Assembly: GCA_963678705.1 (NCBI GenBank)
Contig: OY783205.1
Span: 25,101,034-25,165,033 of the forward strand
Origin: Panorpa germanica
Taxonomy: Eukaryota; Arthropoda; Insecta; Mecoptera; Panorpidae
Direction: 5' to 3'
DNA: 64,000 nucleotides
The translations under genes and the position numbers were made by a program. Positions 7,383 to 49,000 of this stretch are shown piece by piece (within the stretch, counting starts at the first letter, position 1; each line of letters opens with the position of its first letter). Under the pieces are notes generated by a model, which ran no database searches, was not told where the DNA came from, and was given only the letters and a program-made list of their open reading frames with translations.

Positions 7383-8085
7383 TACGAGGCATGTTTTTTA
7401 AGTAAGTACCGTTTTGCGTTTCCGCCTTTGCAGCGCTACGGTCGGCGTTCCGCGCATGCGCGCTGGTTACCTACATCTCTTGTCTACGCACTGACGCCAT
7501 TACAGTCTGATTCTTCATTGTATACGTTGTTTACTGAGTGTTTAAGATGCCTCCGACAATCGTAAGTCCCGCCGATTGTGAAGTACGGGCTGTTATACGA
7601 TTTCTTAGTGCTAAAGGCGTAAAACCGATCGATATTCATCGTGAGATCTGTGAAGTTTACGGACAAAACATTATGAGTGATGGAATGGTAAGGAAATGGG
7701 TGAGAGCATTTAAAGATGGCCGCACAAATGTGCATGATGAAGAACGGAGTGGGCGTCCTTCGGTCTTTAATGAAGATTTTGTGCAGAAAGTGGAAGAAAA
7801 GGTGAGAGAAAACAGACGCTTTACAATTTCATCAATGTGCGACTGGTTTCCTCAATATTCAATAACAGTTGTGATACAGTGGTTAACAAGTCAGGCGGCA
7901 GAATTTTATGAGGAGGGTATTCAAAAACTGGTGCAACGTTATGACAAGTGCCTCAATATTCACGGAAATTATGTAGAAAAGTAGATTAAGGTACAGGCTT
8001 TCATGTAAAAATAAAATTATTGCGATATCTTTGCACGTCTTTTTTTAATTCCAAAACGGTACTTACTTAAAAAACACGCCTCGTA
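7383..8085 (+). mobile_element. internally deleted mariner element
   Basis: The ends are inverted repeats of about 30 bp (TACGAGGCATGTTTTTTAAG at the left; the right end is its complement with one or two changes) flanked by TA on both sides, as expected for mariner/Tc1 target duplication. The total of ~0.7 kb is about half of a normal ~1.3-kb mariner, so roughly 0.6 kb is missing from the middle. It lies 56 bp after the stop codon of the GXYLT-like gene and downstream of its AATAAA. Confidence 0.92.
7547..7984 (+). pseudogene. mariner transposase remnant, in-frame internal deletion
   Basis: A 145-residue open frame starting at ATG 7547 (MPPTIVSP). Residues 1 to ~110 are the N-terminal helix-turn-helix DNA-binding region of mariner transposase (VRKWVRAFKDGRTNVHDEE, SGRPSV). 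After about residue 105 it jumps to the family C-terminus (FYEEGIQKLVQRYDKCLN, ending NYVEK). The segment with all three catalytic aspartates is gone, so it cannot catalyse transposition. The deletion keeps the frame, so a protein with DNA-binding helices could still be made if the element is transcribed. Confidence 0.88.
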
Positions 8086-33386: not shown

Positions 33387-34218
33387 ATGGCTTTTGGAGA
33401 CGTAAAGACCGAGAATGGACAGAAAGCTCTTGACACTTTCTTAGCTGATAACAGTTATATTGAGGGGTAAATTTTCACAACTTTTTAAATTAACCTAAAA
33501 AGCATATGTGTTTGCACATGCACCGCAAACATTTTTGTAATCACATATGTTATTAAATATTACAGATTCCAGCCATCAAAAGCCGATATTTCTGTATTTG
33601 AAGGTATCGGCAAAGCTCCAGCAGCCTCTTTGTCACATTTGGCTCGGTGGTACCGTCATATTGCTTCGTACAGCCAGGCTGAACGCGCTGCCTGGGGAGG
33701 TCAAGCATGCCCATTAGCTGCTGGAGGCAAACCTACCACAAAACCAAGTGCTCCTGCTGATGATGATGATGACATCGACTTATTCGGCAGTGACGACGAA
33801 GAAGATGCGGAAGCAGCCCGTGTAAGAGAGGAACGTCTTGCTGCTTATGCCAATAAAAAATCAAAGAAACCTGCACTAATTGCCAAATCATCAATTATCC
33901 TTGATGTCAAACCCTGGGATGATGAGACAGACATGAAAGAAATGGAAAAGGTAATAAATAAATCTAATAAATATATCTCCCACTTAATTAGTAGGCAAGC
34001 ACTAAACAGAACTTTTCTAGGTGGTTCGAGGAATTGAAATGGACGGTCTTATTTGGGGTGCTTCAAAATTAGTTCCAGTAGGCTATGGTATTAACAAACT
34101 TCAAATCTGCTGTGTGGTAGAAGACGATAAAGTATCAATTGATTTGCTATCTGAAGAAATCCAGAACTTCGAAGATTTCGTCCAGTCCGTTGATATTGCT
34201 GCCTTCAACAAAATCTAA
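33387..34218 (+). CDS. eEF1beta: elongation factor 1-beta (eEF1B alpha)
   Basis: Three exons, 33387-33466, 33566-33950 and 34021-34218, encode 220 residues, the usual length. The protein is the nucleotide-exchange subunit that recharges eEF1A with GTP during translation elongation. The N-terminal GST-like domain ([27 protein letters not shown]) binds eEF1-gamma. An acidic linker follows ([18 protein letters not shown], with a casein kinase II-type site). The C-terminal exchange domain shows [40 protein letters not shown] and the invariant end [18 protein letters not shown] is at 34289. The large satellite array begins about 0.7 kb downstream. Confidence 0.97.
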
Positions 34219-34417: not shown

Positions 34418-34705
34418 GGTGAATCGATACTTGGCCATTTTTTCTAGCGAAATATAGATGGCGATACTATACAGCAGGTTAAATATTATCAAAAAAACCA
34501 TGTTTTCTTATGTTTAAATCATCTTATGTAAGTAACTATAAACGCGAATCAAAATCTAAAGCAGCAATTAGTTAGATGAATAACGTATCTACATTTTAAG
34601 CTTTCTTCCACTGACTTTTAATGAGTTGGAACCGCAAAAATACCTATTGAAAATTAATATTGCTATATTTTCTAGTTAAATTCCATTTCCGCGTTTACAC
34701 CTGTG
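34418..34705 (-). mobile_element. MITE-C copy 1, one end lost
   Basis: Begins next to TTAA with GGTGAATCGATACTTGGCC, the family terminus. It matches the full copy at 47650-47985 in opposite orientation until about 34690, where the second terminal repeat is missing. Confidence 0.75.
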
Positions 34706-35215
34706 TATGCTTAATAGAACTAGCTACCACCGGATATGAAGATGCTGTTAGCTTATTTCCGAACCGGAACTATATTTCTGTGGTTCGTTAGGACTTGAAC
34801 AAACTGTGGCTTAATGAACATCAGAGGATCAGTAGCGGCATAAGTCCATCAAAAATTAATTATTGGCCTTCTCTAAGCAAAGAAAATACTTAAACTAGTA
34901 GCTGATATACTCGTATACATCTTAAAATATAACGACGAGTTTAAATATTTTCTGTAAATATATGCAGTTATGTTCGTTATGTAGTAAAATAAACATCTGC
35001 TTCTTTTCATTTTAAATAACTATGCGTGCCTGGCTTTTGTGCGACCTTTTATAAATTCATGAACTTTTTTTCTAAATTTTTTTTTGGATTCTTTGAAATA
35101 TTTTGATGCAGTTATATTCATTAGGCTTTAAAATAAAGAACTGCTGCATTACATTTTAATTAACTACGCGTGCCTGGCTTTTATGCGACATTTTTTAAAT
35201 TCATGGAAAATCTTA

Positions 35216-35421
35216 TTTTTCAACGCCTGATCAGCATGCAAATATATATACACTAATAAAAATATTATAGTTGCATTGATTAATTGTTTTGCATAAGCAA
35301 TTGAAGGCGTGATGTAGTCACCACATATGTCGAATGGAGGTAAAATAAATACATTGATTAACCTATATTTCAATCCAATATTTTAAAATCGCAACCCAAT
35401 TCATATTGTTGTAATCAATCA
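35216..35421 (+). repeat. flanking module copy 1
   Basis: Unique ~205-bp segment beginning TTTTTCAACGCCTGATCAGC and ending near CATATTGTTGTAATCAATC. It recurs inverted at 40541-40745 and again in direct sense at 41059-41262. It interrupts the monomer series on the left. Confidence 0.85.
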
Positions 35422-35540
35422 TGGACATTTTTTTTTTAAACTATTTAAAATTTTTTTTGGATTCTTTTAAATATTTTGATGCAGTTATGTTCGTTATGGT
35501 CTAAAATAAAAAACTGCATCATTAGATTTTAAATAAGTAT

Positions 35541-37890
35541 GCGTGCCTGGCTTTTATGCAACCTTTTTTAAATCCATGGACATTTTTTTTCTAAAAATTT
35601 TTTTTGGATTCTTTGAAATATTTTGATGCAGCTATGTTCGTTATGGTCTAAAATAAAAAACTGCATCATTAGATTTTAAATAAGTATGCGTGCCTGGCTT
35701 TTATGCGACCTTTTTTAAATCCATGGACATTTTTTTTCTAAAAATTTTTTTTGGATTCTTTGAAATATTTTGATGCAGTTATGTTCGTTATGCTCTAAAA
35801 TAAAAAACTGCATCATTAGATTTTAAATAACTACTCGTGCCTGGCTTTTATGCGACCTTTTTTAAATCCATGGACATTTTTTTTCTAAAAATTTTTTTGG
35901 ATTCTTTGAAATATTTTGATGCAGTTATGTTCGTTATGGTCTAAAATAAAAAACTGCATCATTAGATTTTAAATTACTACGCGTGCCTGGCTTTTATGCG
36001 ACCTTTTTTAAATCCATGGATATTTTTTTCTAAAAATTTTTTTTGGATTCTTTTAAATATTTTGATGCAGTTATGTTCGCTATGGTCTAAAATAAAAAAC
36101 TGCATCATTAGATTTTAAATAAGTACGCGTGCCTGGCTTTTATGCGACCTTTTTTAAATCCATGGACATTTTTTTTCTAAAATTTTTTTTGAATTCTTTT
36201 AAATATTTTGATGCAGCTATGTTCGTTATGGTCTAAAATAAAAAACTGCATCATTAGATTTTAAATAAGTATGCGTGCCTGGCTTTTATGCGACCTTTTT
36301 TAAATCCATGGACATTTTTTTTCTAAAAATTTTTTTTGGATTCTTTGAAATATTTTGATGCAGTTATGTTCGTTATGCTCTAAAATAAAAATCTGTTTCA
36401 TTACTTTTTAAATAAGTACGCGTGCCTGGCTTTTATGCGACCTTTTTTAAATCCATGGACATTTTTTTTCTAAAAATTTTTTTTGGATTCTTTGAAATAT
36501 TTTGATGCAGTTATGTTCGTTATGCTCTAAAATAAAAAACTGCATCATTAGATTTTAAATAACTACGCGTGCCTGGCTTTTATGCGACCTTTTTTAAATC
36601 CATGGACATTTTTTTTCTAAAAATTTTTTTTGGATTCTTTGAAATATTTTGATGCAGTTATGTTCGTTATGCTCTAAAATAAAAATCTGTTTCATTACTT
36701 TTTAAATAAGTACGCGTGCCTGGCTTTTATGCGACCTTTTTTAAATCCATGGACATTTTTTTTCTAAAAATTTTTTTTGGATTCTTTGAAATATTTTGAT
36801 GCAGTTATGTTCGTTATGCTCTAAAATAAAAATCTGTTTCATTACTTTTTAAATAAGTACGCATGCCTGGCTTTTATGCGACCTTTTTTAAATCCATGGA
36901 CATTTTTTTTCTAAAAATTTTTTTTGGATTCTTTAAAATATTTTGATGCAGTTATGTTCGTTATGGTCTAAAATAAAAAACTGCATCATTAGATTTTAAA
37001 TAAGTATGCGTGCCTGGCTTTTATGCGACCTTTTTTAAATCCATGGACATTTTTTTTCTAAAAATTTTTTTTGGATTCTTTGAAATATTTTGATGCAGTT
37101 ATGTTCGTTATGCTCTAAAATAAAAAACTGCATCATTAGATTTTAAATAACTACGCGTGCCTGGCTTTTATGCGACCTTTTTTAAATCCATGGACATTTT
37201 TTTTCTAAAAATTTTTTTGGATTCTTTGAAATATTTTGATGCAGTTATGTTCGTTATGGTCTAAAATAAAAAACTGCATCATTAGATTTTAAATAAGTAC
37301 GCGTGCCTGGCTTTTATGCGACCTTTTTTAAATCCATGGACATTTTTTTCTAAAAATTTTTTTTGGATTCTTTTAAATATTTTGATGCAGTTATGTTCGC
37401 TATGGTCTAAAATAAAAAACTGCATCATTAGATTTTAAATAACTACGCGTGCCTGGCTTTTATGCGACCTTTTTTAAATCCATGGACATTTTTTTCTAAA
37501 AATTTTTTTTGGATTCTTTTAAATATTTTGATGCAGTTATGTTCGCTATGGTCTAAAATAAAAAACTGCATCATTAGATTTTAAATAAGTACGCGTGCCT
37601 GGCTTTTATGCGACCTTTTTTAAATCCATGGACATTTTTTTTCTAAAAATTTTTTTTGGATTCTTTGAAATATTTTGATGCAGTTATGTTCGTTATAGTC
37701 TAAAATAAAAAACTGCATCATTAGATTTTAAATAACTACGCGTGCCTGGCTTTTATGCGACCTTTTTTAAATCCATGGACATTTTTTTTCTAAAAATTTT
37801 TTTTGGATTCTTTGAAATATTTTGAGGCAGTTAGGTTCGTTATAGTCTAAAATAAAAAACTGCATCATTAGATTTTAAATACCTACGCGA
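35541..37890 (+). repeat. 147-bp satellite, left array, 16 conserved monomers
   Basis: Counting the word GCGTGCCTGGC (or a one-base variant), monomers start at 35541, 35688, 35835, 35981, 36127, 36273, 36420, 36567, 36714, 36861, 37008, 37155, 37301, 37447, 37593 and 37740: spacing 146-147 bp throughout. Each has long T and A runs, an NcoI-type CCATGG word and usually ACGCGT. The next monomer, at about 37887, is strongly degenerate. Confidence 0.95.
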
Positions 37891-38520
37891 TTTTGGCTTT
37901 TATGCGACCTTTTCTATTTTCATGGACATTTTCTTCAAAAAGAAAAAATTACATTTTCTTGAATTGTTTTGATGCAGTTATGTTCGCTATGCTTTAAAAT
38001 AAAGAACTGCTTCATCAGATTTTAAATATCTACGCAGAAACTAAAAAAATTGCATTGCTCTTAAAATCAAAAAGTGAACCTTTTCATCATTTTTAACAAG
38101 ATTATAGCCTTCTTTCATTGAAAAACTGAAGAAGAAAATATGTTATTTTTATAACCGTTTTTTATATAATTTTGAATGCTGATTTCAAATTTGTAATTAA
38201 TTTTTAGATAAGTCTTTTGGTTTACGAGATATCGGCATAAAAAGCCGAACAATTTTTATGAAAAGTAAGAAGACTATACTCTTCTTACTTTTCATAAAAA
38301 TTTAAAAAATACATGTCATTTTATAACGAATATTAACTTAATTTCAAATTTATAATTCATTTTTAAATAAGTATTTTAGTTTATGATATATCAATATTTT
38401 AAATCTTTTTATCGGAGTATGCAATGAAAGAAGACTATAATCTTGTTAAAAATGATGAAAAGGTTCACTTTTATGATTTTAAGAGCAATGCATTTTTTTT
38501 AGTTTCTGCGCAGATATTTA
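37891..38520. repeat. imperfect palindromic core of the satellite structure
   Basis: The two sides are diverged inverted copies: GAACCTTTTCATCATTTTTA at 38077 mirrors the segment around 38447-38466, and likewise the neighbouring AAGATTATAGCC region. Divergence within the core shows it is not a trivial sequencing hairpin. Confidence 0.8.
38253..38300. repeat. perfect 21-bp inverted repeat at the axis
   Basis: Arms 38253-38273 and 38280-38300 are exact complements (TTTTTATGAAAAGTAAGAAG plus one base) around the 6-nt spacer CTATAC. It marks the symmetry centre of the whole structure. Confidence 0.95.
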
Positions 38521-40500
38521 AAATCTAATGATGCAGTTTTTTATTTTAGACCATAACGAACATAACTGCATCAAAATATTTCAAAGAATCCAAAAAAAAT
38601 TTTTAGAAAAAAAATGTCCATGGATTTAAAAAAGGTCGCATAAAAGCCAGGCACGCATACTTATTTAAAATCTAATGATGCAGTTTTTTATTTTAGACCA
38701 TAACGAACATAACTGCATTAAAATATTTCAAAGAATCCAAAAAAAATTTTTAGAAAAAAATGTCCATGGATTTAAAAAAGGTCGCATAAAAGCCAGGCAC
38801 GCATACTTATTTAAAATCTAATGATGCAGTTTTTTATTTTAGACCATAACGAACATAACTGCATCAAAATATTTCAAAGAATCCAAAAAAAATTTTTAGA
38901 AAAAAAATGTCCATGGATTTAAAAAAGGTCGCATAAAAGCCAGGCACGCGTACTTATTTAAAATCTAATGATGCAGTTTTTTATTTTAGAGCATAACGAA
39001 CTGCATCAAAATATTTCAAAGAATCCAAAAAAAATTTTTAGAAAAAAAATGTCCATGGATTTAAAAAAGGTCGCATAAAAGCCAGGCACGCGTAGTTATT
39101 TAAAATCTAATGATGCAGTTTTTTATTTTAGAGCATAACGAACATAACTGCATCAAAATATTTCAAAGAATCCAAAAAAAATTTTTAGAAAAAAAATGTC
39201 CATGGATTTAAAAAAGGTCGCATAAAAGCCAGGCACGCATACTTATTTAAAATCTAATGATGCAGTTTTTTATTTTAGAGCATAACGAACATAACTGCAT
39301 CAAAATATTTCAAAGAATCCAAAAAAAATTTTTAGAAAAAAAATGTCCATGGATTTAAAAAAGGTCGCATAAAAGCCAGGCACGCATACTTATTTAAAAT
39401 CTAATGATGCAGTTTTTTATTTTAGACCATAACGAACATAACTGCATCAAAATATTTCAAAAAATCCAAAAAAAATTTTTAGAAAAAAAATGTCCATGGA
39501 TTTAAAAAAGGTCGCATAAAAGCCAGGCACGCGTACTTATTTAAAAAGTAATGAAACAGATTTTTATTTTAGAGCATAACGAACATAACTGCATCAAAAT
39601 ATTTCAAAGAATCCAAAAAAAATTTTTAGAAAAAAAATGTCCATGGATTTAAAAAAGGTCGCATAAAAGCCAGGCACGCATACTTATTTAAAATCTAATG
39701 ATGCAGTTTTTTATTTTAGACCATAACGAACATAACTGCATCAAAATATTTCAAAGAATCCAAAAAAAATTTTTAGAAAAAAAATGTCCATGGATTTAAA
39801 AAAGGTCGCATAAAAGCCAGGCACGCATACTTATTTAAAATCTAATGATGCAGTTTTTTATTTTAGAGCATAACGAACATAACTGCATCAAAATATTTTA
39901 AAGAATCCAAAAAAAATTTTTAGAAAAGAAATGTCCATGGATTTAAAAAAGGTCGCATAAAAGCCAGGCACGCTTAGTTATTTAAAATGTAATGAAGCAG
40001 TTCTTTATTTTAGAGCATAGCGAACATAACTGCATCAAAATATTTCAAAGAATCCAAAAAAATTTTTAGAAAAAAAATGTCCATGGATTTAAAAAAGGTC
40101 GCATAAAAGCCAGGCACGCATACTTATTTAAAATCTAATGATGCAGTTTTTTATTTTAGAGCATAACGAACATAACTGCATCAAAATATTTCAAAGAATC
40201 CAAAAAAAATTTTTAGAAAAAAAATGTCCATGGATTTAAAAAAGGTCGCATAAAAGCCAGGCACGCGTACTTATTTAAAATCTAATGATGCAGTTTTTTA
40301 TTTTAGAGCATAACGAACATAACTGCATCAAAATATTTCAAAGAATCCAAAAAAAATTTTTAGAAAAAAAATGTCCATGGATTTAAAAAAAGTCGCATAA
40401 AAGCCAGGCACGCATACTTATTTAAAATCTAATGATGCAGTTTTTTATTTTAGAGCATAACGAACATAACTGCATCAAAATATTTCAAGGAATATAAAAG
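38521..40500 (-). repeat. 147-bp satellite, right array, 13 conserved monomers
   Basis: The same monomer read on the minus strand. GCCAGGCACGC words lie at 38646, 38792, 38939, 39081, 39228, 39375, 39522, 39669, 39816, 39963, 40109, 40256 and 40403. Spacing is 146-147 bp except one 142-bp unit, which has lost five bases next to ATAACGAAC. Monomer number differs from the left array. Confidence 0.95.
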
Positions 40501-40540
40501 AATTTTTTTAGAAAAACATGTCCATGATCAAATCATCATT

Positions 40541-40745
40541 GATTACAACAATATGAATTGGATTGTGATATTAAAATATTGGATTGAAATATAGGTTAAT
40601 CAATGTATTTATTTTACCTCCATTCGACATATGTGGTGACAACATCACTTCTTCAATTGCTTATGCAAAACAACAAATCAGTATGCCACTATAATAATTT
40701 TATTAGTGTATATATATTTGCATGCTGATCAGGCGTTGAAAAATA
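40541..40745 (-). repeat. flanking module copy 2, inverted
   Basis: Reverse complement of the module at 35216-35421, with small differences. It places the same unique sequence at the outer edge of both arrays. Confidence 0.85.
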
Positions 40746-41058
40746 AGATTTTTCATGAATTTAAAAAATGTCGCATAAAAGTCAGGCACGCGTAGTTAAT
40801 TAAAATGTAATGCAGCAGTTCTTTATTTTAAAGCCTAATGAATATAACTGCATCAAAATATTTCAAAGAATCCAAAAACAATTTTTAGGTAAAAATGTCC
40901 ATGAATTTAAAAAAGGTCGCGTAAAAGCCAGACACGCATAGTTATTTAAGATGTAATGAAGCAGATCTTTGTTTTAAAACAAAACGAACATAACTGCATC
41001 AAGAAATTTCAAGAAAATGAAAATATAGATAATGTATCAACTTTAGAAAAAAATATTA

Positions 41059-41262
41059 TTTTTCAACGCCTGATTAGCATGCAAATATATATACACAATT
41101 AAAAGTATTATAGTTGTATACTGAATAATTTTTTGCGAAGACAAATGAAGAAGGAATAACGTCACTACATATGTCGAATGGGTGTAAAATAAAAACATTG
41201 ATTAACCTATATTTAAAAATCGATCTCTAAGTTCACAACCCAATTCATATTGTCGTAAACAA
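41059..41262 (+). repeat. flanking module copy 3, diverged
   Basis: Third, more diverged copy (TTTTCAACGCCTGATTAGC to ATTCATATTGTCGTAA) in the same sense as copy 1, beyond the two degenerate right-hand monomers. It suggests the left half of a second, lost or truncated unit. Confidence 0.75.
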
Positions 41263-41956
41263 TTTGAAACATGTAGAAATTCTTTTTGTAAAGTCGTTAT
41301 GCTAATATGATTTGATTGAGTCACGCTGAAGGTGAAGACAATAGCATGACATAATTCTACAATTTAACACGAATTTCTTTAGGTCCGGGACTCCTGCGGC
41401 TATTATTAATCTTATTAATAATTCTTAGTATTCATTCATTATTAATGAACCGCTAAACACAGTAATTAACGTGTAAATAAGCTATATCTAACATTTGCTT
41501 AATTTGTGACCTATTTTACAGCTTTTTGAAAAATAAACCTATCTTTTTACGCATTTTTAACACATTTTTAAAGATTAAAGAATATTTGAATATCTGTAAA
41601 ATATTGAATAAGTAAAAAAGTATCTATACAACTAAGTAGTATAGATATATATAGATGTATAGATACTACCTAAGAAGTAACTAACAGAAGTATTGGACTT
41701 TATTCATTCTATAGGTAAATAACTAAATTGGTTGAACTTTTATGGTCCAAACCAATGCGACATTCACATAGATATAATTTATTTTAGGGTATTTTTATTA
41801 TATACAAATGTTTCTACTGGCTATCGATAAATGTTTTAATTATGTCATTATTGAAAATAATATAAGACACAGAAACTTGAAAGAATTAGATCAATAAAAT
41901 ATTCTTTCTCCTTTATAACTATGTCCATTGTTAAACAATTGATCTGACTTTACTAC

Positions 41957-46000: not shown

Positions 46001-49000
46001 TGATAATTCGATTATGTTCAAAGATACATTGTGTCAATAAATAATTGCAAATCTTTTACTAATATTTGTTTAATACGTAACATTATATAATCTAGCACAA
46101 AAAGCTTTATTGAAATCAGAAAATGTAAATTTATGTTCAAAGATAACTTTTGTTATGTAATGCTACATAATATCAACCTAAAAATGTTATGTAACAAGTA
46201 AACTTTTATGTTAAATATACCTTAAATGTATATATAACTATGTTTAGCGGATTACATTTGTAGTCTTCATGATTTTGAAGTAGTTTAATTCGAGCTGATC
46301 TCAATTGTTGTCTCAGTAAACTCGTACTGCCTTGCAGGCGTCTTGTGTGTACATCTTTCGGGGGGAAAGATTAAAAAGGGGGTTTTTAAGAGTCCACTGA
46401 TTCAGATCCACGTTTTATGAATCAACAATTTTTTTTACGTGACAAATTCAAATAAATTTGAATATAACCTTCAATTTAAAATGTCACTTGCATTAAATCG
46501 GACCTTATGGTTTTTGTGATTTCATTATTCATTCAATATTATAAACAAATATCTTATTGTCTTATAACCTTTATTGTTAGGAAACGGAAATCCTCCTAAT
46601 ATGGTCGCCTTGCGTGTACATAATATCTGAGGTTTTGATAAAGTAAAGATCATGACAAGTAAATGACATAAAGCAATTATATTAATTAATATATATCAGC
46701 ACATTCATTAACCACAGGTTTCTAATTAGGTTATGAATCATATCAGAATTTATTTAAAACTGCGCTGTTTATTAATAAGTTGATTAACATAACCTCGAAT
46801 TTTCAATTATTTTTATTCAATTCGCAATATTACATCAGTTCTTACAATATATTATTCTTTGAAGCAGTCTTTCGCCACTTTCGTTATTAAAGAAATCAAA
46901 AAAGTGTTGTTAAACAACAGAGTGTCAAAAAGATGCATAATCAAACGTCAAATTCTCCTTACAGCTGCCTCGACAATCCATAAACTTTTAATATTAGAAT
47001 GTGGTATACAATAATAAATAAATTTGATCAGCTATTATCTTGACATCAAAAATATGGCTAACAATTAAGCAGTAAAATGAAATTCAAACTATAAATAGCT
47101 ATATGTCTCTATTAATAGGTTTAATAAAGTAAAAACGCCGATATATATCTATATATTTACCTATATTTTAGTAATAAACGTAATAAACTAACCTAAAAAT
47201 TAGTTTCTTAGCATTCGATATATCACTTACAATTTAAAACAGTGACTGACGTCATTTTGGTCTAATTTCTCCTAGAATATTGCGACTAATTAAAATATAA
47301 AAACAACTAGATCTTACCCATAAATACAGTTACATATATTTTATATATATTTACCATAAAAAAGTTACCTATTTCGTAAACGGAAAGATTCAGGAAATTT
47401 CGTGCCAATGACATTGAATGATAATTAATTAAATATGTAAGAAAGTATAAAATTTGATAATTAGTTGATATTTCAATCATTAATAATAATTGTGATAATT
47501 AATGAAATAATTCAAGGTCTGTATACAAATTAAATTAGTACGTCTTCCGAGAATTTGTAGACTTTAAGAAGAATTAACTTAGAAAGTCAAGGTTTTACCA
47601 GGTATAGCTTTTACGGCCTTACCTTTTTATATTATCTTATCCAGCTTAATGTGAAACGATACTTGGCCATTTTTTCTAGCGAAATATAGATGCGAATGTT
47701 ACCAGTAATATAAAAATTGGAATTTAACTAGAAAATAGAGCAATATTCATTTGCAAACCTTATTTTTGCGGTTCCAACTCATTAAAAGTCAGTGGAAGAA
47801 AGCTTAAAATGTAGATACGTTATTCATCTAACTAATTGCAGCTTTAGATTTTGATTCGCGTTTATAGTTACTTACATAAAACAATTTAAACATAAAGAAA
47901 CATGGTCTTTTTGATAATATTTAACCTGCTGTATAGTATCGCTATCTATATTTCGCTAGAAAAAATGGCCAAGTACCGTTTCACCTTAAATTATAAAATT
48001 ACTTTGCTTCAATGTTTTCCTACCCTCTTCGCCTCATTCTTCTCACTTCTGCTATCCACCGCCAGATGGAGGAGAAGGCGTATACAGCGACAGCTACGGT
48101 TATATTAGAAATATTTTAAACTTGCTTTATTGAAATTTCTTATACGTTAAACTAAGACGGACTTTAAACACCTTTGAACACCTTCTAGATGTTTGATTTC
48201 TATGCATACGATTTTACAATCAATTCTCATAACTGGATGTCATAACGCAAGTTTATAAAATTTGCATATGGAATAAATATATTACTGAAATAAATTATTA
48301 AATATTTGAATGGGGCCAAGGTAAGGTGAGAAGCCTGTTTAATGGAATTAGTGCCACCCAAGAGTTTTATTAGTAATTATTAGAATTAATTATTAGTAAA
48401 ATTTGACGTAAACATAGTTTATATATTAGCAATGTAACATTTTTACAACCATTAACAAATTTATCAGTTTTAACATGAGCTTCCAAAAAGAAGATACAAT
48501 GGGCTTGTGTCCTATGTCTTAATTTCTATAGAAGTGTACTATATATTGATAAAGTTGGTTACTAGAACCTCAAATGTTCAATTTTCCCTTTAATTATTAA
48601 AATGATTTAACGTTGGACAACGTTCCAACTGCATGTGACATCACAACCGCTAGTTGCTATCTCTTTTATACAACAGAGCGTAAAAGAGATAGCATATTAA
48701 AGATAGAACTCTGGCAAGTCAATTTGGCAGACATAAAAGTTATACTGCAGAGTAAATATTACTACTATACATATAAATAGGTAATATTGTGTAATTAAAT
48801 AGAAACCCGACCGCGCGTTGGATACCCTTGAACTAAACTATTGACCGTGAAGATGAATATTATCGTTGAAAGATTATTTAACATGATAATTTCATTAGTA
48901 TAATAATAAATACATATATTAATAATAATTCAACATAATATATTCTATTTTCTGTTATTAAATCGGAATTCCCAATATATAAACGTCATACCGGATTTAA

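Follow-up and report, generated by a model that had tools for sequence, protein, structure and literature searches.

The DNA stretch analyzed here, a 64-kb window of contig OY783205.1 from the mecopteran Panorpa germanica, contains a copy (hereafter W) of a repeat in which two arrays of a 147-bp satellite face each other. The family to which W belongs is dispersed and has satellite arrays for inverted repeats, and W is probably an old member of a non-autonomous Helitron-type family with a fold-back body, i.e., an array, a palindromic core or a bare axis, and an array in inverted orientation. Facing arrays were found at dispersed places in the genome, in every array locus that was covered whole, and a young branch of the family, branch D, combines facing arrays with a 3' hairpin followed by CTAG, a TC start in the three copies where it is readable, and an A/T insertion site without target duplication. 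Branch D consists of non-autonomous Helitrons, and its ends are not those of a fold-back transposon. The fold-back type element proposed in the initial annotation can be retained as a dispersed family with satellite arrays as inverted repeats, but not as a fold-back element in the sense of Tetris, since the ends of the young branch are unlike and no duplication accompanies them.

The arrays were called with Tandem Repeats Finder (TRF), and the pairing of the arms was analyzed by self-BLAST. The left array (35447-38035, plus strand) has a period of 147 with 17.7 copies and 95% matches; the right one (38515-40526), on the opposite strand, has the same period with 13.7 copies and 96% matches. In the self-BLAST of the window, 34947-37448 pairs with 38508-41018 at 94.8%, and the dyad axis was placed at ~38276.5. 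Two facing 147-bp arrays in opposite orientation, with an axis near 38276, had been described before from the letters of the window and are confirmed here; the earlier counts of 16 monomers on the left and 13 on the right proved slightly low. The core of ~470 bases between the arrays is itself an imperfect palindrome, and as single-stranded DNA the region 38020-38530 has a much more stable fold than its shuffles (z = -21). A single monomer can form a 10-bp stem (TGATGCAGTT/AACTGCATCA), but its fold is not significantly better than that of shuffles (z = -1.6). The folding of the core, together with the occurrence of the same arrangement at many loci, excludes a chance origin of the mirrored arrangement. 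No match to Rfam was found at gathering thresholds. The repeat spans from 34962 to about 41263-41292 and is composed of the following parts:

34962 to 35207, plus strand: two outer diverged 147-bp monomers; the left repeat edge, which begins within a monomer at ATGCAGTTATG
35215 to 35440, plus strand: left copy of module M, the first ~60 bp of which are the widespread T hairpin motif CGCCTGATCnnCATGC
35447 to 38035, plus strand: left satellite array, 147 bp x 17.7 (TRF)
38036 to 38514, no strand: type-A palindromic core, self-complementarity 74-79% in 13 copies
38255 to 38301, no strand: central hairpin of the core, kept in core types A and B
38515 to 40526, minus strand: right satellite array, 147 bp x 13.7 (TRF)
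40534 to 40744, minus strand: inverted copy of module M, 94% alike to the left copy
40754 to 41012, minus strand: two outer diverged monomers on the right side of W
41058 to 41292, plus strand: third, diverged copy of module M (79%), in the orientation of the left copy; the right repeat edge lies at 41263 or 41292

For the left flank (34690-34960), no second match was found in the genome. On the right, two of the matches to other places break off at 41263 and one at 41292, which indicates that the repeat ends there, and a search that skips very common words found no second match for the sequence from this edge to 41520. Module M occurs in full or nearly full length at four genomic places, three of them within W. 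The inverted module noticed earlier outside both arrays is real, but with three copies in W, two of them in the same orientation, it does not resemble terminal inverted repeats (TIRs). It was also observed that a module M in an array is flanked by two copies of TCATGG (window 35206-35430), as if it had been inserted with a short target duplication.

The genome searched comprises 464.2 Mb in 249 contigs, and in each search the best 40 or fewer candidates were scored (150 for Helitron genes), so that the counts given here are lower bounds. Searches with the core, the module and the monomer, as the initial annotation had proposed, showed that the structure recurs at many dispersed loci. The satellite is very widespread (of 1214 first-look candidates for a 401-base piece, the best 40 were scored), and for the core, the best 40 of 1023 candidates match over its whole extent. 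Twenty 10-kb regions around relatives were examined. Both array orientations were found in 19 of the 19 array loci covered whole (W, L009-L023, L027, L028 and L079), which is not a random sample, because the loci were chosen by likeness or by module search: L009-L020 by the core, L027 and L028 by the monomer, L021-L026 by the module, and L079 from the list of young copies. L024-L026, without a proper array, and L078, a 1-kb piece, do not enter this count. The type-A core branch consists of W and L009-L020; L027 represents the type-B core branch, with a core that is a 91% palindrome, and L028, on chromosome C20, is a separate branch. In branch D (L021-L023 and L079), the arms meet without a core, and the monomers are ~62-66% like those of W, yet the period of 146-147 bp is kept. 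A length constraint would be compatible with the constancy of this period across diverged branches, but is not proven by it. The core has outer shoulders that hardly differ between types A and B or between its two sides, and pieces of them recur within some arrays.

The ends of the element can be read in branch D, pieces of which are 96-100% alike on 14 chromosomes (best 34 of 575 candidates scored), which argues that this branch spread recently. L021, L022 and L023 align to exactly one base and then diverge. Read outward, the 3' end consists of the hairpin CCCATTGC-TAG-GCAATGGG, then GCGAAGAG, then CTAG. A search with the L021 end and its host flank (best 40 of 263 candidates scored) returned 41 rows including the query, and 37 of them start 1-20 bases outside the last element base (position 63 of the query), i.e., the boundary is sharp; the remaining four are the query itself, two matches extending further out and the second piece of one copy. 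At 22 of 22 branch-D 3' ends (19 picked from the 41 rows, and L021-L023), CTAG is preceded by the hairpin and followed by a host T. The sequence beyond CTAG differs among these ends, except for L069, L073 and L077, which lie in the same repeat, and L074, which lies before the 5' region X1 described below. A generic scan for Helitron 3' ends gave four hits in all 36 windows, three of which were L021-L023, compared with 5 of 272 control windows.

The opposite ends were analyzed at 18 young edges (L040, L041 and L043-L058). A nearly identical 5' region, X1, is fused to the array at the same base in eight of them. Region X starts with A|TC, host A and element TC, in L040, L043 and L044, and in L044 only ~24 bases of it precede the array. 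No A|TC was seen at the other 15 edges, where the 5' region abuts or is interrupted by another Helitron, where there is another flank or the 3' side, or where the edge was not reached. In L047, L051, L054, L055 and L058, the CTAG of another Helitron stands directly before the 5' region, so that one Helitron follows immediately on the next. For each of the 14 arrays whose non-3' edge was readable, a D-type 3' end in matching orientation is listed at the other side; L049, L050 and L056, which themselves show the 3' subterminal region, and L048, where the edge was not reached, stand outside these 14. Joining the two flanks gives host A-T at three of three sites (L040/L068, L043/L072, L044/L069), and no target duplication was seen at them. 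Two of the three joined sites match uninterrupted DNA. The L044/L069 join matches L020 without a gap across the junction (112 bases, 95.5%) and is also gap-free at five places in L024 (92-95%) and in shorter stretches of L025 and L026; compared with L018, a gap is present only well away from the junction. This host repeat carries three D elements, L069, L073 and L077, at the same base (..TACTA|TATATTGATAAAG..), and uninterrupted copies of it are present in L020 and L024. When the L040/L068 join is aligned with a satellite monomer (78% over 58 bases), the junction is free of gaps: this copy jumped into another array. For L043/L072, no uninterrupted match was found among the DNA regions compared.

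One copy, L079, shows the whole plan within ~5.2 kb: the X1 5' region, 11.6 units in plus orientation, ~21 units in minus orientation, the 3' hairpin, CTAG and T. Its 5' region and 3' end are unlike although its interior is inverted, i.e., there are no TIRs. The interior is filled by arrays and contains no RepHel; since, in addition, no Helitron gene could be tied to the D-type 3' end, branch D is regarded as non-autonomous. Possible partners were considered among the 893 Helitron_like_N candidates of the genome, which lie on C2, C5 and other chromosomes. Many of the 150 scored have open frames of 1119 aa, which suggests a recent burst of autonomous Helitrons. On chromosome C2, the listed Helitron genes lie at 1.6-18.4 Mb and the listed W-like arrays at 22.3-25.2 Mb. 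The autonomous 1119-aa family (C2, C3) was rejected as a parent, as there were no arrays in the stretch examined and its 3' hairpin is another one. A Helitron of this kind located 46 bp from the array in L041 was likewise rejected as the parent of that array: its 5' end, TCTTAATATATAAAAG, lies inside the X1 region, and this indicates a separate insertion.

The link from branch D to W is given by intermediate relatives. Among the loci covered whole, the nearest array relatives of W are L027 and L028 (89-91%). They share a 3' hairpin with CTAA and then diverge from each other, the next base in L028 being T. In L078, a hairpin with CTAG|T stands beside 146-bp monomers that are 79% like those of W. 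W is placed in one satellite family with branch D, as an older member, and its own ends may once have been those of a Helitron. That W was founded by a Helitron is suggested by this kinship and not by its own ends, because W and its 12 type-A sisters have no such end beside their arrays. A weak hairpin with CTAG at ~34893, in the left flank of W, was considered as a Helitron 3' end and rejected, since this flank matches nowhere else in the genome and the hairpin finds no support in the generic scan.

Several observations weigh against this reading. No related Helitron 3' end was found within 500 bases outside the arrays in any of the 13 type-A copies (W and the 12 others); a related end is present in L016, far from the arrays. 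The generic scan gave one hit (L010) in 26 windows beside type-A arrays, which is within the control level. No terminal sequence as well conserved as the 96%-alike cores was found at type-A loci, and such cores without equally conserved ends mean that type A may have spread or been homogenized otherwise. In L027, CTAA is followed by G and not by T. As regards branch D, the exact 5' base is readable in three copies only (L040, L043, L044), another Helitron adjoins the 5' side of L079 and masks its own first base, and in L074 the X1 sequence stands right after a D-type 3' end, so X1 is also a target. The autonomous Helitron of L033, L034 and L042 has a different 3' hairpin and no convincing shared sequence with the arrays or the core, and no partner with a D-type 3' end was identified among the Helitrons examined. 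Finally, the two arms are closely alike at some type-A loci only; in loci such as L011, L014 and L018, monomers of the same rank in the two arms are mostly ~75-90% alike.

The mechanism proposed for the family is as follows. The RepHel protein of some autonomous Helitron would act in trans and copy the unit from the 5' TC to the 3' hairpin. Once inserted, the arrays may expand or contract and undergo mutual conversion across the dyad. The different 5' ends (X1, the longer region of L040 and the bare 24-base end) could have been joined to the array and the 3' end by read-through of an adjacent terminator; chimeric 5' ends fit such an event, which was shown experimentally for Helraiser (PMC4778049). 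W and its type-A sisters would have spread in the same way earlier and have since lost recognizable ends, and their core and arrays may have been kept alike by conversion, mostly within chromosomes.

The strongest competing explanation holds that there was no recent type-A transposition at all, and that the similarity of old, dispersed fold-back loci was maintained by gene conversion between them, chiefly on the same chromosome, or that extrachromosomal satellite circles re-seeded them. We regard it as possible, although on the doubtful side. The contrast between the parts of the type-A loci speaks for it: the core is 95.9% alike between the 13 loci (93.6-98.8, 78 pairs), the adjacent array blocks only ~85%, the outermost compared blocks 74% and 78% (some of them beyond the shorter arrays), and the flanks are largely unrelated. 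Array edges fall at many monomer phases. The core variants are also partitioned by chromosome. A type-A-specific 56-mer has 87 matches with up to three mismatches in a pattern search (control, 0), confined to ten chromosomes (C1, C2, C3, C6, C9, C10, C12, C18, C19 and C20) that make up 203.5 of 464.2 Mb. Of 81 pairs of identical non-reference variants, 46 have both members on one chromosome, where 11.5 were expected and 1000 shuffles gave 27 at most; same-chromosome pairs less than 20 kb apart were left out. The lists of types A and B share only C9, an overlap of 2 against at least 18 in 5000 shuffles, which is a weaker test because these lists hold the best 40 matches. Type-A cores within a chromosome are only slightly more alike than those between chromosomes (96.5 vs 95.9%, p = 0.036). 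However, local transposition would likewise yield chromosome-biased variants, and conversion leaves the founding of the loci unexplained, whereas the young branch shows founding by Helitron insertion. In W, L009, L019, L020 and L016, a left monomer and its right counterpart of equal rank agree at 94-100% for many ranks, i.e., several type-A loci have arms that resemble each other more closely than arrays of different loci do. This indicates that the arrays were re-amplified and corrected locally across the axis in several loci, while the core is alike in all 13. Array growth outward from the core was considered as well, but likeness between loci declines only weakly over the first blocks, and outer blocks may reach past the shorter arrays.

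According to another explanation, type A, including W, is a true fold-back DNA transposon with TIRs, like Tetris or FB, whose ends are a C stem-loop and the T hairpin, and only branch D was captured by Helitrons later. Many type-A copies have T and C motifs at their sides, often pointing inward; the combined C-T module occurs dispersed in the genome (40 of 307 candidates were scored, and C21 holds 13 of the 41 matches listed), and the absence of a Helitron end beside the 13 type-A copies would be expected. We nevertheless consider this rather improbable. The spacing between modules and arrays varies widely, from tens to hundreds of bases, and the modules occur in either orientation. Among the main matches listed, the C-T module shows 78-83% likeness, compared with 96% for the core. 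Moreover, no shared sharp boundary was found in the type-A flanks, and the closest array relatives of W carry Helitron-type 3' ends. The C and T modules were rejected as element ends, being irregular in place, orientation and likeness. The C stem-loop, GCGCCATCTATTAAACAGTAG...GTTTCATAGATGGC, adjoins the T hairpin in the flanks of L011, L013, L015, L018 and L028, and it resembles a CTCF site. The T motif was also found in a tandem duplication in L024, which carries two 138-aa open frames with identical translation, 2915 bases apart; they resemble a trypsin-type protease.

Chimeric reads are known to yield inverted arrays, but that an assembly error turned a single array into a hairpin here is hardly credible, as the arms of W are unequal, the core is asymmetric, both flanks lack a second match, the same plan recurs at 19 of 19 array loci and many of the 87 core 56-mer matches have their own variants; the initial annotation had argued against an assembly hairpin as well, and rightly so.

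Within the preferred reading, in which W descends from non-autonomous Helitrons with a fold-back body, a further proposal can be made, which is tentative and as a whole rather unlikely to hold: the facing arrays would be the working part of the element, combining a kilobase hairpin stop by the 3' terminator, arm-to-arm correction and variants of each chromosome's own. In the single-stranded rolling-circle intermediate, the arrays could fold together into a hairpin of kilobase size that carries the 10-bp stem of each monomer along its length. The array with the 3' end would then be an efficient stop, which different Helitron 5' ends might have acquired via read-through. The palindrome would let the arms correct each other, so that a mobile satellite stays homogeneous, and mostly local spread or conversion would give each chromosome its own variants. 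Independently of this proposal, the way in which mobile satellites stay homogeneous becomes testable, because the likeness between arms (95-99% in some copies) can be compared with that between loci (~85%). The family offers copies at different stages, young ones with intact ends and old ones without recognizable ends but with well-kept arrays, and it is a dispersed repeat with strongly chromosome-partitioned variants.

Other features of the window were also noticed. An EF-1 guanine-exchange gene (EF1_GNE, 3e-23) lies to the left of W, and its last exon ends at 34218. Another dispersed repeat forms an inverted pair, 34501-34688 and 47715-47902, 92.6% alike, one copy of which ends ~270 bases left of W. 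At 7538-7984, an open frame with a Mos1-type HTH domain (HTH_48, 9.6e-09) is present, a mariner remnant or a relative.

Helitrons as well as fold-back elements that carry satellites have been described before (PMC7492417, PMC4079207, PMC12628747). Cg_HINE of the oyster, alongside which DINE-1 is named, belongs to the non-autonomous Helitrons/Helentrons with satellite-like central repeats (PMC7492417). It resembles the present family in being dispersed and non-coding, with tandem repeats between two unlike end modules and no target duplication (PMC7492417). The difference is that two arrays face each other here about an axis or a palindromic core: HINE has one repeat orientation and a TT site, whereas two orientations were found here in 19 of 19 loci and an AT site at the three D sites. 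A partial precedent is a remark in a review on oyster Helitron-type elements with arrays in differing directions (PMC12628747). Tetris is described as having inverted repeats of ~220-bp tandem units, inverted terminal domains and 8-10 bp target duplications (PMC4079207). Tetris and FB share with the present family the long arms of inverted tandem repeats, the variable copy number, a middle domain without open reading frames and the seeding of satellites (PMC4079207); young copies here differ from Tetris in their unlike ends and in showing no target duplication at three D sites. Helraiser and bat Helitrons have 5'-TC and CTAG-3' ends, a hairpin before the 3' end, A/T insertion and read-through to new 3' ends (PMC4778049). 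Branch D agrees with them in TC, in the hairpin with CTAG and in A/T insertion; Helraiser differs in being autonomous, and the passages considered do not mention a kilobase inverted array beside its ends (PMC4778049). In insects, Hel1 (PMC6544945) and Lep1 (PMC4038834) are Helitron families that have TC/CTRR ends and a 3' hairpin in common with branch D; the Hel1 exemplars are short (162-257 bp), and facing satellite arrays are not mentioned in the part of the source used (PMC6544945). Apart from the oyster remark (PMC12628747), no account of a Helitron whose body consists of facing satellite arrays was found in the open-access literature as far as it was covered. A fold-back satellite with Helitron ends is an unusual pairing, in which one element unites the two routes by which transposons seed satellites, that of fold-back elements and that of Helitrons.

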